20,479 nucleotides of DNA from a virus, in the IMG/VR virus record IMGVR_UViG_3300010367_000007, positions 1 to 20,479 of that record. One strand, written 5' to 3'. The position numbers were made by a program, and so were the translations under genes. A model generated the notes under the pieces. The model did not search any database. It was not told the DNA's origin and was given only the letters and a program-made list of their open reading frames with translations. How positions within the stretch are numbered: the first letter of the stretch is position 1; each line of letters begins with the position of its first letter. Positions 1,388 to 6,920 of the stretch are shown here, piece by piece.

Positions 1388-2600
1388 GACGCGCGCCGCG
1401 CTCCGCTACCATTGGCCGTTCTGGGCACGACCCAACCAACTCGCTCCCGATGGTGATTGGCGGACATGGCTGGCGCTTGCTGGTCGAGGCTTTGGCAAGA
1501 CGGAGGCCGGCGCTCAGTGGATACGGCAGCGGGTCAAGGACGGCGCTCGCAACATCGCGTTGGTAGCTGAGACGCAAAAGGATCTGGAGGAGGTCATGGT
1601 CGCCCGGCTGTTGACGATCAGCCCAGCCGATGAGGCGCCACGCGTACGCTACAAGCCTGTTCGATTGGCATGGCCAAACGGTGCGACTGCTTTCGGCTAT
1701 AACGGCACCGAGCCCGACCAGCTACGCGGTCCGGAGTTTGACACGGCGTGGGTCGATGAGCTGGCGAAATATCGATACGCTCGCGAGACCTGGGACATGC
1801 TGCAGTTCACCATGCGCGCTGGTGACGATCCGCGCGTGTTCGTGACGACGACGCCGCGTCCGATTCCCGTCCTGAAGGAGATCATCGCCGATAGCGGCAC
1901 GATCATCACCAAAGGCTCGACCATGGACAATGCGTCCAACCTCGCGCCGTCGTTCATGAAGGCGATTGTCGATCGGTATGCCGGCACCCGTCTTGGACGA
2001 CAGGAATTGAACGCAGAGTTGCTTGACGACGTGCCGGGCGCGCTGTGGTCGCGGGATATGCTCGACGCCAATCGGGTGAAGGAAGCGCCTGAGCTACAGC
2101 GCGTCGTGATCGCCGTCGACCCCAGCGGCACCAAAGGCACAGGCGCTGGTGACGACATCGGCATCGTAGCCGCTGGGCTTGGCATCGATGGTCGCGGCTA
2201 TGTGCTCGGCGACTGGACCTGCCAGCTTTCGCCGGAAGGATGGGGCCGTCGCGTGGTCGAGTGTGCGTCGTTCTTTGGTGCCGATCGCATCATCGGCGAA
2301 CGCAACTTCGGCGGCGCTATGGTCGAACACGTCATCCGTACCGTCGACAAGAACGCGTCGTACAAGGAAGTTGTCGCCAGCCGCGGCAAGGTGGCGCGTG
2401 CCGAGCCTATCGCGGCGCTCGATGAACAAGGGCGCATTTCACACGTCGGTGCGTTCCCCGACCTCGAAGACCAGATGTGCTCGATGACGGCTTCCGGCTA
2501 TGTCGGCGAAGGATCGCCAGACCGTGCCGACGCGCGAGTTTGGGCGCTGACTGAGCTGATGCTCGGCGGCACGTACTCCCCCGATTATGGGGCGCTGTGA
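1311..2600 (+). CDS. terL: Terminase large subunit (ATPase-nuclease packaging motor)
   Basis: This 429-residue protein is the motor that translocates DNA into the prohead and cuts concatemers. Walker A is GRGFGKT at residues 58-64. Walker B ends in Asp149-Glu150 (FDTAWVDE), followed by the coupling motif TTTP at 179-182. The C-terminal RNase H-like nuclease shows acidic residues Asp270 (VVIAVDPSG), Glu331 (IIGERNFGG) and Asp408 (DRADARVWAL), which fit the metal-binding triad of the Terminase_6 type. ATG 1311 is preferred because AGGAAG at 1299-1304 is six bases upstream. ATG 1305 abuts that site and would add two residues. It overlaps the end of the small subunit gene in another frame. Confidence 0.95.
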   Translation: MLSPAQLLASLPEPEREAELAKLSTETRAALRYHWPFWARPNQLAPDGDWRTWLALAGRGFGKTEAGAQWIRQRVKDGARNIALVAETQKDLEEVMVARLLTISPADEAPRVRYKPVRLAWPNGATAFGYNGTEPDQLRGPEFDTAWVDELAKYRYARETWDMLQFTMRAGDDPRVFVTTTPRPIPVLKEIIADSGTIITKGSTMDNASNLAPSFMKAIVDRYAGTRLGRQELNAELLDDVPGALWSRDMLDANRVKEAPELQRVVIAVDPSGTKGTGAGDDIGIVAAGLGIDGRGYVLGDWTCQLSPEGWGRRVVECASFFGADRIIGERNFGGAMVEHVIRTVDKNASYKEVVASRGKVARAEPIAALDEQGRISHVGAFPDLEDQMCSMTASGYVGEGSPDRADARVWALTELMLGGTYSPDYGAL

Positions 2601-2622
2601 TGATTTGTGCGAGGATAGCGAT

Positions 2623-2916
2623 ATGACCGATACGATGATCGAGCGCGTTGCGATTGCGTTGGAAAACGAACTGCGCCGACAGCACGAAGGCGAGTATCTC
2701 GTACGCTATTTCCCGCGCGGCCCCGGGTCGGATTGGTTGACGGTCGACGGCAACATTTACGTGACGCCCCTAGTGCGCGCCATCCTCGCCGCGATGCGCG
2801 AGCCGACCGAGGCGATGCTCGACGCCGCCGAGGACAAGGAGTGTCAGAGCCCAAGGGGAACGGCTCGAGCAATGCACCACGCCATGATCGACGCCGCCCT
2901 AACCGACCAGCCGTAA
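2623..2916 (+). CDS. Small hypothetical phage protein
   Basis: A 97-residue protein starts at ATG 2623, with GAGG at 2611-2614 eight bases upstream. An in-frame ATG at 2587 would overlap the terminase gene and has poorer support. It resembles a widespread class of small phage proteins: an N-terminal helix (MIERVAIALENELR), a short beta region with aromatic residues, and a C-terminal segment VRAILAAMREPTEAMLDA followed by MIDAAL. The function of that class is not known to me. The last three codons and stop (Asp-Gln-Pro-stop) lie inside boundary element copy A, so the element supplies the stop codon. Confidence 0.7.
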   Translation: MTDTMIERVAIALENELRRQHEGEYLVRYFPRGPGSDWLTVDGNIYVTPLVRAILAAMREPTEAMLDAAEDKECQSPRGTARAMHHAMIDAALTDQP

Positions 2917-2943
2917 TCATCAACCCACCCGCGCGCGTATCCC
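2905..2943 (+). repeat. Module-boundary element, copy A (before the portal gene)
   Basis: This is the first of four copies of a bipartite element: GACCAGCCGTAATC at 2905-2918, 19 bases, then TATCCC at 2938-2943. The ATG of the portal gene follows seven bases later with no Shine-Dalgarno sequence between. The TAA inside the first half is the stop codon of the preceding gene. Similarity to copy B also covers parts of the spacer (CCACCC and CGTATCCC). The fixed distance of TATCCC to the start codon would suit a promoter making a leaderless mRNA. A recombination boundary is the alternative. Function is inferred. Confidence 0.6.
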
Positions 2944-2950
2944 AGCGCGC

Positions 2951-4921
2951 ATGTCCGGCCGCATCCGACCCGAGAGTGTCCGCCTGAAGGACGCCGGCAA
3001 CGTCGTGCCGATCCGCGACGGGCTCATCAGCATGCTCACCGGCATGGGCACCAGCACCGATCAACGCAGCTACAGCCGCTATTTCGCGCGCGTCATGTCA
3101 GATGTGGAGATCGATCAGGCCTATCGTGGGTCCTGGGTGATGCGGAAAGCAATCGACAAGCCCGCCACCGAGATGGTGCGGGAATGGCGCGACTGGCAGG
3201 CGGACAGCGCCGACATCGAAAAGCTTGAGGCCGAGGAAAAGCGGCTCGACATCCGCAACAAGGTCCGTCGCGCCGAATGCCTGCGTGGGCTCGGTGGAGC
3301 GGGCATGGTCCTGTACGTCGGCGGGTCTGACGCCGAGCAGGCAAACGCGATCGACCCGACCAGGATCAGGGCCGGCGACCTCAAGGCAATCCACGTCTGG
3401 CACCGGTCGCGTTTCGCGCTCGGCCCGATGATCGACACATGGGGCGATCCATGGTTCGGGCACCCGTCCTATTACGAGGTCCAGCTTTCCGGCACGTCTG
3501 GCGGTAAGACGATGCGCTTTCACCCCTCTCGCGTTGTCGCCTTCAAGGGCGAGCCGGTAACCGACATTGCGGGCGTCGACTGGCGTGACGCGCACTGGGG
3601 ACAAGCCAAGGTCCAGACGATCATCGACGCAATCCAGAACGTGGACACCGCGGACACCGGGTTTGCCGCACTGATCAGCCAGGCCAGACTACGGCGCATC
3701 TACATCCCCAAGCTGCTCGACATGCTCAGTCAGCCCGGTGGCGAGGCGAAACTGGCCAAGCGGTTGCAGGCCTTCGCGCTGGGCGAAAGCAACAACTCGG
3801 TATCGTGGCTCGATGGCGGTGACGGTGCGACGGGCGCCGAGAAGATCGACGACAAGCAGGTCACTTGGACCGGCATGCCCGATATCATGGCGGCCTATCG
3901 CACTGCCGCGGCTGCTGCTGCCGACATGCCGGCGACCGTGCTGTGGGGCATCTCGCCGCAGGGCATGAACGCGACCGGCGATAGCGATATCACGCTGTTC
4001 CATAAGACGATCAAGGGCAGGCAGGACCTCGATTTGCGACCGTGCATGACGCAGATCGACGCCGTGTTGGTGCCTTCCGCGCTTGGTCGTGTTGATGACG
4101 GCCTCTGGTACGACTGGGCGCCGCTGTCGACGCAGTCAGAGAAGGACGAAGCGACGACGTTCTTCACCTTCATGCAGGGCGTGGAGAAGCTGCAGGCGAC
4201 CGGCGCGATTCCCGGCGTTGCGTTCGACAAAGCGCTGCAGAACACGCTCGAGGAAAGGTCGTGGTTTCCTGGTCTCGGCGACGCATTGGCCGAGATACCG
4301 GAAGACGAGCGCTTCCCGTCGCTGTCCGAGCCCGATCCGAACGAGCAAGACCCCAACGCCATTCAAGCGGAAGGAGGTGATCAGACCACCGGCGGCAAGG
4401 TAGCCCCACTGCGACGAGCCGCAAACGACACGCGGTTCGTTGATGGCGCGGACCCGAAGACCTTGTACATCGAACGTAAGCTGCTGAACGCGGACGAAGT
4501 GATCCGCTGGGCCAAGTCGCAGGGCTTGGAAACGACGCTCGCACCCGCAGACATGCACGTCACCGTCGCCTATTCGCGGACACCAGTCGATTGGTTTAGC
4601 GTCGGCACGGATTGGGCCGGTGATCAGGACGGCAAGCTGCGGGTCAAACCGGGCGGCGCGCGGACGGTTGAACGTCTCGGTGATGGCGATGCTGTCGCGC
4701 TGCTGTTTGCATCCGATGATCTAAAATGGCGTCACGACCGTATCGCAGAGGCCGGCGCGTCGTGGGATTGGCCCGACTATCGCCCGCACATCACGTTGTC
4801 GTGGAATGCACCCGGCGTCGATGTTGCAGCGATCAAGCCGTATGTCGGGCCGTTGGTGTTTGGACCGGAATTGTTCTCGACAGTGAACGAGGACTGGAAA
4901 TCGGGAGTAACGGAAGAATGA
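2951..4921 (+). CDS. Portal protein with C-terminal Acb1-like anti-CBASS phosphodiesterase domain
   Basis: The 656-residue protein has two parts. Residues about 25-440 are a DUF1073-type phage portal, the dodecameric ring at the capsid vertex through which DNA passes (YRGSWVMRKAIDKPATEM, FHPSRVVAFKG, then ISPQGMNATGDSD). A Pro/Asp/Gln-rich linker spans about 455-495. Residues about 500-656 form a 2H-phosphoesterase with paired HxT motifs, His536-Val-Thr538 and His613-Ile-Thr615. It also has the blocks LYIERKLLNADEVIRWAKSQG and GASWDWPDYRPHITLSW, which I recognise as typical of Acb1, the enzyme that hydrolyses CBASS cyclic nucleotides. The ATG lacks a Shine-Dalgarno sequence and sits seven bases after boundary element A. 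It overlaps the possible early start of the next gene by ATGA. Portal identity is firm. The Acb1 activity is inferred from motifs. Confidence 0.93.
   Translation: MSGRIRPESVRLKDAGNVVPIRDGLISMLTGMGTSTDQRSYSRYFARVMSDVEIDQAYRGSWVMRKAIDKPATEMVREWRDWQADSADIEKLEAEEKRLDIRNKVRRAECLRGLGGAGMVLYVGGSDAEQANAIDPTRIRAGDLKAIHVWHRSRFALGPMIDTWGDPWFGHPSYYEVQLSGTSGGKTMRFHPSRVVAFKGEPVTDIAGVDWRDAHWGQAKVQTIIDAIQNVDTADTGFAALISQARLRRIYIPKLLDMLSQPGGEAKLAKRLQAFALGESNNSVSWLDGGDGATGAEKIDDKQVTWTGMPDIMAAYRTAAAAAADMPATVLWGISPQGMNATGDSDITLFHKTIKGRQDLDLRPCMTQIDAVLVPSALGRVDDGLWYDWAPLSTQSEKDEATTFFTFMQGVEKLQATGAIPGVAFDKALQNTLEERSWFPGLGDALAEIPEDERFPSLSEPDPNEQDPNAIQAEGGDQTTGGKVAPLRRAANDTRFVDGADPKTLYIERKLLNADEVIRWAKSQGLETTLAPADMHVTVAYSRTPVDWFSVGTDWAGDQDGKLRVKPGGARTVERLGDGDAVALLFASDDLKWRHDRIAEAGASWDWPDYRPHITLSWNAPGVDVAAIKPYVGPLVFGPELFSTVNEDWKSGVTEE
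4371..4382 (+). promoter_or_regulatory. Perfect internal Shine-Dalgarno sequence inside the portal-Acb1 linker
   Basis: AAGGAGGTGATC is a 12-base complement to the usual bacterial 16S rRNA 3' end. It lies in codons 474-478, in the linker between the portal and Acb1-like domains. No in-frame ATG, GTG or TTG follows at initiating distance; the nearest TTG is at 4463. It may be a relic of a once separate acb1 gene, a translational pause site that lets domains fold separately, or chance coding of Glu-Gly-Gly-Asp. Confidence 0.45.
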
Positions 4922-4986
4922 GTTGCTTCCATCCGTGGTGCGGCGTCGAGGGCCGCAAATGCATCGATTGCTCACAGGAGAATATC

Positions 4987-5268
4987 ATGCCTACTGTCGA
5001 TAGAGCGCCCGACGCGCGCACCGCCAACAATGCCGTCCGCCACCAGTATCGCGTCCTGAGTGACGCCGAGAAAGCGCAGATGGTCGCCGTGAAGGACAAG
5101 GGCGCCGAGTTCCTTGACCTGATCGACACCCTTCGCACGCCGCCCGAGCCAGCCGGAGAAGTCGATGGCCAGCCGATGGCTATCATGACGTTCGACCGCG
5201 AGTTGCACATCGCGCGCGAGCGTATCGAGGAAGCGGTCATGTGGGCGGTGAAGCACATCACCGCCTGA
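4987..5268 (+). CDS. acb2: Acb2-like cyclic-nucleotide sponge (anti-CBASS/anti-Thoeris)
   Basis: This 93-residue protein matches what I know of the Acb2/Tad1 hairpin family. After a short variable N-terminus come HQYRVLSDAEKAQMVAVKDKGAEF (20-base quote limit aside, residues 19-42) and the C-terminal helix RERIEEAVMWAVKHITA at 77-93. Acb2 proteins form small helical hexamers that bind and sequester CBASS signals such as cGAMP and cyclic trinucleotides. As I recall, phage PaMx33 Acb2 uses Tyr11 and Lys26 in binding. Here Tyr21 and Lys36 keep the same 15-residue spacing. AGGAG at 4976-4980 lies six bases before this ATG. A second possible start, at 4918, overlaps the portal stop by ATGA and would add 23 residues with four cysteines. 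The gene sits between portal and minor head genes. Confidence 0.82.
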   Translation: MPTVDRAPDARTANNAVRHQYRVLSDAEKAQMVAVKDKGAEFLDLIDTLRTPPEPAGEVDGQPMAIMTFDRELHIARERIEEAVMWAVKHITA

Positions 5269-5274
5269 TGCACG

Positions 5275-6132
5275 ATGGCCTCCCAACCTCCGACGACTGA
5301 GCCCGACGAACACCGCAGAGCCGAAGCCGCCGCCCTGATTGCGATCGGGCTGTCCCTCCCCGCCATCATCCGCGCAGCCAAGATAAAGCCGCGCCCGTTC
5401 CGGCAGATCGCGCCAACGGAGGCGCTGCGTTCGTCTATGGCTGCGGTGTTTCTCGACATCGTGAAAGCCTGGCGGGCCGAGCGGCCGGCGATCATGGCGG
5501 CATATGCGGAGGCTCGGGCAACCGGTGATGCCCGCGTTGCCCTGCGCGCTGTCGATGATGCTGCGGCTCGGGTTGCGCCAGTCGTCGCCAGCACCAAGAG
5601 CCGCCTGCCCGACGTCGTGTCGCGCGTAGAGGCATGGCATCGTGGGCAGTGGGTGCGTCGTGTCCAATCCGCGACCGGGCTCAACGTCGCCCATAGCACG
5701 ACGCCGGCCGATGTCCGCGGCGACATCCAGACGACCGTCGATTGGGCATCGCGCCTCGCGGACGATGTCAGCCGCAAGATACAGAACGATATCACGTCGG
5801 GACTGCTCGGCGATCTGGCGGCCAAAAAGCCGGTTGCGGATGCTGGAACGACTGCCAGCGACGTTATCGCCAAGGCCAAGCGTCGATCGCTCGGTATCGG
5901 TGTCGACCAGACTGACAAGCTATCGCGGTCGATGGATCGGTCGCGGCGCAAGGCGGCGGGATTGACGCGGTTCATCTGGCGACACTCTCCGCATGTGCGG
6001 CACCCGAGGCCGGAGCACGTGGCCAGAGACGGGCGCGTGTACAGCGAGGCCAACGCGCCCAACGATAGGGCTGGCGTACTTTTTGGATGTGCCTGTTACG
6101 AGGAACCGATCTGGACTAACGACCAGCCGTAA
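5275..6132 (+). CDS. Minor head protein, phage Mu gpF / SPP1 gp7-like
   Basis: The 285-residue protein belongs by position and C-terminus to the Mu gpF-like minor head proteins (PF04233), which associate with the portal during head assembly and may be ejected with DNA. The family signature is seen late: FIWRHSPHVRHPRPEHV from residue 233 with Trp235, Arg242, His243 and His248, then a Cys272-Ala-Cys274 near the end, matching the usual R-x-x-H and terminal cysteine pattern. Residues about 10-230 are Ala-rich and helical. The start lies six bases after the upstream stop with only a weak ribosome binding site, suggesting coupled translation. The stop lies in boundary element copy B, as Asp-Gln-Pro-stop. 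Confidence 0.82.
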   Translation: MASQPPTTEPDEHRRAEAAALIAIGLSLPAIIRAAKIKPRPFRQIAPTEALRSSMAAVFLDIVKAWRAERPAIMAAYAEARATGDARVALRAVDDAAARVAPVVASTKSRLPDVVSRVEAWHRGQWVRRVQSATGLNVAHSTTPADVRGDIQTTVDWASRLADDVSRKIQNDITSGLLGDLAAKKPVADAGTTASDVIAKAKRRSLGIGVDQTDKLSRSMDRSRRKAAGLTRFIWRHSPHVRHPRPEHVARDGRVYSEANAPNDRAGVLFGCACYEEPIWTNDQP

Positions 6133-6158
6133 TCCCCCGCCACCCCCGATCGTATCCC
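6121..6158 (+). repeat. Module-boundary element, copy B (before the tail tube gene)
   Basis: GACCAGCCGTAATC at 6121-6134 is identical to copy A, followed after 18 bases by TATCCC at 6153-6158. The spacer also shares CCACCC and CGTATCCC with copy A. As in copy A, the TAA serves as stop codon of the preceding gene. Unlike the other copies, a 27-base gap with a proper AGGAG ribosome binding site separates it from the next ATG. A transcript starting just after the element would carry a short leader here. Confidence 0.6.
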
Positions 6159-6185
6159 GCTCCGCAAATTCGCAGGAGTGCACAG

Positions 6186-6920
6186 ATGTCACAGCCCGAC
6201 ACGGTCAAAGGTGGTTATTTCGACGTCGCAGTTGACGTGACCAACCAGGGCGTGACCGATTCCGGCGGCAATTCCCTCAGCGGCTATGTCGTCATCTGCG
6301 GGCTGAACACCCGCAATCTGACCCATCAAGTCAACACCAGCGACGAAGCCGTTCCGAACTGTCAGGACCCCGAAGCGGTGCCGTGGGTGTCGCGCAACGC
6401 GAACAGCCAGGAAAAGAACATGTCGGGCACGGGTTTGCACAATCGCGCGCAGACCAACGTCATTCGTGCGATCTTCGGCAAGACGCTCCCGTATCGCTTC
6501 ATCGAGGGCGAGCCCGGCAACGATCTCGTCAGCCAAGGTTACTGGCAGGGCCCATACCTGTTCAACCAATGGCAGGAGGGCGCGACCGACAAGCAGAACG
6601 TGACGTCGCAGTTCTCGTGGCAGAGCGATGGTGAGGTCGACTGGGTTTCGACCACCTCACCCACGCTGGCCACGCTGACCGCGACCCCGCTGACCGGCAC
6701 TGCCGCGACGCCGTGGTCCGGCGTGATTTCAGGCCGCACCGCCGGCTCGACGATCAGCGTCGTCGCAACCGGCGCCACTGCCGTAAGCTTCGACGATGCG
6801 ACCAACACGATCCATGCCACCTGGGCGACGTCCGGCAGCAAGACCGTGAAGGTCAACGAAACGAACGCCGAGGCCAACAATTCTCCGCACCTGACGACGC
6901 TCACCGTCGTCATCTCGTAA
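6186..6920 (+). CDS. Major tail tube protein with C-terminal Ig-like domain
   Basis: This 244-residue protein would polymerise into the non-contractile tail tube. Residues 1-155 have the beta-rich character of siphophage tube proteins, with NMSGTGLHNRAQTNVIRAIF, a segment GYWQGPYLFNQW and the terminal SWQSDGEVDWVS typical of the fold. Residues about 160-244 look like an added Ig-like domain (TATPLTGTAATPWSGVISGR through SKTVKVNETNAE), a common surface decoration on tail tubes. AGGAG at 6174-6178 is seven bases before the ATG. The following chaperone and tape measure genes confirm the tail assignment. The location before the capsid protease gene is unusual. Confidence 0.82.
   Translation: MSQPDTVKGGYFDVAVDVTNQGVTDSGGNSLSGYVVICGLNTRNLTHQVNTSDEAVPNCQDPEAVPWVSRNANSQEKNMSGTGLHNRAQTNVIRAIFGKTLPYRFIEGEPGNDLVSQGYWQGPYLFNQWQEGATDKQNVTSQFSWQSDGEVDWVSTTSPTLATLTATPLTGTAATPWSGVISGRTAGSTISVVATGATAVSFDDATNTIHATWATSGSKTVKVNETNAEANNSPHLTTLTVVIS

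Follow-up and report, generated by a model that had tools for sequence, protein, structure and literature searches.

The locus lies in the IMG/VR virus record IMGVR_UViG_3300010367_000007, of which positions 1 to 20,479 were analyzed (the whole 20,479-nt stretch is hereafter called the window). Its head genes follow one another on the plus strand in the order small terminase, large terminase, a 109-aa ORF, portal, an acb2-type gene and a minor head gene, and tail, cement and major capsid genes come farther along the same run. The portal ORF (2951..4921) encodes 656 aa, comprising a core (aa ~53-412), a low-confidence linker (aa 454-499) and a C-terminal domain of the Acb1 family of 2H phosphoesterases (aa 503-651; 4457..4903). 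Its stop is separated by 65 nt from the acb2-type gene (4987..5268, ATG at 4987 and TGA at 5268), which encodes a 93-aa hairpin protein and ends 6 nt before the head morphogenesis/minor head gene (5275..6132; PHROGs, phrog_324, E = 4.9e-22). A mechanical ORF start for acb2 at 4726 was rejected in favor of the ATG at 4987, upstream of which a ribosome-binding-like AGGAG can be read (4976..4980). No promoter-like sites were found in 2400-6400, hence none between portal and acb2, and terminator-like sites in this interval were no stronger than the shuffled background, the sole plus-strand site lying inside the portal coding sequence. Given the lack of a promoter and of terminator-like sites above shuffles, portal and acb2 are likely carried on a single transcript. 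A sequence-only reading had placed an Acb1-like degrader and an Acb2-like sponge back to back at 2951-5268, within the structural run. The coordinates are right, the pair does sit among same-strand head genes, a promoter between the two was looked for and not found, and both families with their key residues are recovered; however, the degrader is the C-terminal domain of the portal and not a separate gene.

In Pfam searches, both domains of the portal scored far above the cut-offs: Phage_portal_3 (PF06381) covered aa 53-412 with E = 6.8e-86, and Acb1 (PF23474) covered aa 503-651 with E = 2.9e-43 and 147.5 bits, its cut-off being 27. A search of the record itself gave Acb1 an E of 1.6e-46. The catalytic tetrad of Acb1 is H44/T46/H113/T115 (PMC9117128). 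In the alignment to 7t26, these residues correspond to two HxT motifs of the portal, H536-V-T538 (4556..4564) and H613-I-T615 (4787..4795). The HxT/HxT arrangement is kept across diverse portals (alignments of 20 and of 23 sequences), with the H536-V-T538 motif and H613 invariant and the T615 position nearly so (Thr, with Ser in a few rows). The AlphaFold2 (AF2) model shows a folded core, a stretch with pLDDT below 50 at 454-499, where the linker between portal core and Acb1 is predicted to be disordered, and then a folded Acb1 domain. This modelled domain matched the FBB1 Acb1 structure 7t26 by Foldseek (E = 8.5e-9, TMt 0.81), in agreement with a predicted 2H phosphoesterase fold. When compared with the PDB, the portal aligned over aa 18-653 with the portal of Pseudanabaena phage Pam3 (8hds; E = 4.8e-101). 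In a comparison of 4448-4918 of the window with a relative (L002), pN/pS was 0.47 for the Acb1 domain and 0.20 for the portal core, pointing to fast evolution or replacement of the domain.

The 93-aa protein matched the Acb2/Tad1 hairpin family PF24729 in Pfam (E = 4.4e-17; 62.4 bits against a cut-off of 27). A single-sequence phmmer search against the PDB gave nothing meaningful, and only the family profile worked: built from 23 relatives, it retrieved Acb2 p26 (8h2j, E = 1.4e-13), T4 Vs.4 (7uq2, E = 2e-5) and, weakly, Tad1. Y21, K36 and R71 are invariant in 23 rows that include canonical Acb2 proteins at 24-27% identity, and by alignment they equal Y11/K26/R67 of Acb2 p26, with a Y21-K36 spacing of 15. 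Y11 and K26 are ligand residues of Acb2. For the T4 protein, binding is deficient in the Y8A mutant (PMC12657230). The Acb2 fold has one short and two long helices; the AF2 model (pLDDT 83) shows two long helices and ranks Acb2 first in the PDB by Foldseek, with a weak E of 0.8. Pairs of Acb2 sequences gave pN/pS values of 0.15-0.31, and the protein is under purifying selection. The subfamily to which the window's Acb2 belongs is found mostly in phages of Alphaproteobacteria, and its members start with TANNAVRH.YRVLSDAEK. Chance origin of the two matches is excluded by their E-values and by the conservation in relatives, and both parts are, by sequence, new members of known families. PADLOC returned no match for either the portal-Acb1 or the acb2 product, a null result that is uninformative because its library is built around defense. 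An Acb2 of the window's subfamily also occurs in the tailed-phage genome named Dunaliella viridis virus SI2 (HQ332136, L160), for which the recorded host is a green alga and which may in fact infect a bacterium present in the algal culture.

The linkage was examined by the co-occurrence test that the sequence-only reading had proposed. Searches by portal in viral contigs and in named bacterial genomes gave 359 portals, which were classified and dereplicated at 95% core identity, and the slot was defined as the 500 nt downstream of the portal. The slot contained acb2 in 22 of 165 dereplicated Acb1-portals and in 0 of 52 Acb1-free portals (Fisher p = 0.0027, with relatedness not corrected). Across the 1.69 Mb of the same Acb1 loci, acb2 was located 22 times in the slot, which makes up about 5% of this DNA, and once elsewhere. 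Seen from the other side, an Acb1-portal was the commonest upstream neighbor in two samples of Acb2 drawn with separate queries, accounting for 10 of 64 distinct neighbors in the one and 5 of 60 in the other; one of these samples is biased towards relatives of this phage because its query was the window's own Acb2. Among the 64 neighbors there were also Acb1-free portals of the SU10 type (3) and the Mu type (2), which suggests that portal-adjacent slots are somewhat attractive to acb2 in general. A paired-branch test of the association had too few informative pairs. The pairing of acb2 with Acb1 is real, recurrent and, in tests not fully corrected for relatedness, beyond chance. At the same time, 143 of the 165 Acb1-portals (87%) have no acb2 in the slot. 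With carriers at only about 13%, acb2 is optional and the pair is facultative, not an obligate unit, so that the idea of a fixed unit has to be given up; the scatter of carriers on the portal tree and an exact gain or loss, both described below, speak against it as well.

On the portal-core tree, the 22 acb2 carriers require 22 changes, much like shuffled labels, which indicates that acb2 comes and goes quickly. Joint transfer of Acb1 and acb2 in a single piece found no support: the labels change 22 times on the core tree and 21 times on the Acb1-domain tree, and both values resemble shuffles. Sequences from the portal context cluster on the Acb2 tree, yet 12 changes of context are needed there, at least 4 of which are forced by well-supported branches. 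Two deep Acb2 subfamilies occupy the slot, the window type and the canonical type, the latter including Pseudomonas prophages (L296, L300). Two proviruses (L037 and L053) are 96.5% identical up to near the portal end and 94.7% identical from the next gene onwards; between these flanks, L053 carries a cassette of about 0.26 kb with acb2 and L037 has nothing. Thus, acb2 can be gained or lost exactly. In other relatives the slot holds nothing or small ORFs, and in L006 an ORF that looks, by eye, like a serine recombinase directly follows the Acb1-portal. An Actinomycetota MAG contig (L262), which may be misbinned, carries an Acb1-portal together with an acb2 of a type otherwise seen in Alphaproteobacteria. 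A hairpin downstream of an Acb1-portal fragment in L306 matched weakly, at 24 bits, and was left out of the main argument.

The Acb1 domain itself is exchanged independently of the portal core. Compared with the window, one relative (L004) is 90% identical in the core and 45% in Acb1, and another (L011) is 43% identical in the core and 78% in Acb1. A further portal (L005, 6001-7989), the best segment of which is 87% similar to the window's, ends in a PBECR3 nuclease (Pfam) instead of Acb1, and 47 of the 217 dereplicated portals end without the domain. The portal tail seems to act as a general site for effectors. In L398, L448, L474 and L500, too, portals of this family end in another C-terminal domain, the tails of the last three being similar by eye only. 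Fusions to Acb1 extend to other head proteins, since the domain was found at or near the C-terminus of HK97-type portals (PF04860; L311, L313 and L317) and of Mu-type portals (PF06074; L312, L316 and L552). In a single contig (L085, 6001-7115), Acb1 is fused to an XkdF-type prohead protease with an Acb2 of the window's own clade immediately upstream, and this Acb2 and the fusion sit downstream of a Mu F-like head gene. Acb1 there is on the protease and the order is reversed; this contig is the best evidence that Acb2 is tied to Acb1 and not to the portal slot.

Characterized Acb1 proteins (FBB1/T4 57B; 7t26/7t27, PF23474) share with the portal domain the 2H domain, the HxT/HxT tetrad, a strong profile match and, in the model, the same fold, but they are free-standing and about 150 aa long, whereas here Acb1 is the tethered C-terminus of the portal. 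Similarly, Acb2 (p26, 8h2j/8h2x) and T4 Vs.4 (7uq2), both of PF24729, resemble the window's Acb2 in the predicted helical hairpin, the Tyr/Lys/Arg places and size, but canonical Acb2 is only about 27% identical to it and the window's protein falls in a separate subfamily. The Pam3 portal is of the same family and has a C-terminal Acb1 domain; Pam3 differs in being without acb2, its minor capsid gene overlapping the portal end. The solved chain of 8hds has 442 modelled residues out of 621, as would fit a tail domain on a loose tether. Phage T4 also combines a nuclease and a sponge, but its acb1 and acb2 are separate genes (57B and vs.4; PMC12657230) and neither is fused to a structural protein. 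The two T4 proteins count against different CBASS operons. The nuclease dominates in lysates; one operon is countered by the sponge by itself, another requires the nuclease, and the acb1/acb2 double mutant shows a loss of about 10,000-fold on CBASS hosts (PMC11722364). The nuclease-plus-sponge principle is therefore already known from T4 (PMC11722364, PMC12657218), where the logic put forward by the sequence-only reading has been demonstrated. In the 2022 paper on Acb1, 112 members were counted in prophages, and the word "portal" is absent from it (PMC9117128). Our literature search, which had most subscription papers and the original Acb2 reports outside its scope, returned nothing on Acb1 in portals or on this physical pair. 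The sequence-only reading knew of no description of this exact pair; as far as the literature was searched, this holds for the Acb1 fusion to structural proteins and for the recurrent physical pairing, which are new, but not for the principle.

We regard a facultative two-layer counter-defense within the head operon as the probable explanation, if by a limited measure. The portal would carry an Acb1 phosphodiesterase on a flexible tether. Late in infection, portal subunits still free or being assembled would degrade cyclic oligonucleotide alarm signals in the cytoplasm. The Acb2 sponge encoded in the next slot would bind the same signal class directly, including signals that the enzyme cuts poorly. 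Such a two-layer mechanism is credible, with CBASS as the presumed target; the two parts may be active as enzyme and sponge, may be expressed at the same time, in step with capsid sensing as the sequence-only reading proposed, and may give a joint, synergistic benefit. More tentatively, phages may repeatedly have fused Acb1 to essential proteins of the head (three or more portal families and a prohead protease) and placed the sponge beside it, so that counter-defense is made together with virion parts; we hold this broader view to be a possibility somewhat short of an even chance.

A serious rival, possible although on balance unlikely, is that the gap between portal and minor head gene is simply permissive for small passengers and that acb2 has no functional tie to Acb1. 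The varied slot contents of the relatives (nothing, small ORFs or the serine-recombinase-like ORF of L006) would be expected in this case, as would the random-looking scatter of acb2 over the portal tree and its presence after Acb1-free SU10- and Mu-type portals and in many other places. On the other hand, a merely permissive gap does not account for the absence of acb2 from all 52 Acb1-free portals of the same family, for Acb1-portals topping the neighbor lists of both Acb2 samples, or for the contig in which Acb2 accompanies an Acb1 carried by a different protein and in reverse order. A less probable alternative is that the pair acts on other nucleotide-signal systems, such as type III CRISPR cyclic oligoadenylates or Thoeris, as much as or more than on CBASS. 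Cyclic trinucleotides are ligands of Acb2 homologs, with a potential effect on type III CRISPR (PMC12043709), and the hairpin is common to Acb2 and Tad1; however, the nearest solved relatives of both parts are anti-CBASS proteins. Least likely of all, and in our judgment improbable, is that the portal 2H domain does other work, such as assembly or RNA or tRNA chemistry. Its location on a structural protein and the PHROGs label of the family (RNA ligase) would suit such a role, but its best matches are Acb1 itself, it swaps independently of the core, and a PBECR3 nuclease takes its place in L005. Moreover, the many same-family portals that lack it (47 of 217) indicate that the portal can do without the domain.

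Carrying these proteins also has a known cost: Acb1 and Acb2 can activate Panoptes, a host system on guard against proteins of this kind, and Acb2 is the stronger trigger (PMC12657218, PMC12657230). We infer that this cost would fit an acb2 that is optional and quickly gained and lost. If the parts are active, the locus would represent counter-defense that is part of structural proteins, its tail module being exchangeable and the neighboring sponge cassette optional, and this would explain protection made exactly when the portal is made. The natural near-isogenic phages found here, some with and some without acb2, and with portals that end either in Acb1 or in a nuclease, are suited to asking why a phage should have a sponge as well as a nuclease.

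An Acb1 domain that forms part of a portal gene is easily overlooked, and Acb1-family proteins are also found under other annotations, namely prohead protease or RNA ligase (L546, DSS3P8 gp129; L547, ZHS_4; and phrog_755). The ZHS protein (ZHS_4, L547), which is labelled "prohead protease", was considered as a further protease fusion and rejected, because Pfam finds no protease in it, only Acb1 plus weaker 2'-5' RNA ligase/LigT-type matches. No Acb2 was found near the Acb1 proteins of DSS3P8 or ZHS that bear this label. In another contig (L553:1-3090), Acb1 is one part of a 1030-aa ORF, and the same ORF has matches to ADP-ribosyltransferase families, including one of the polyvalent-protein type.
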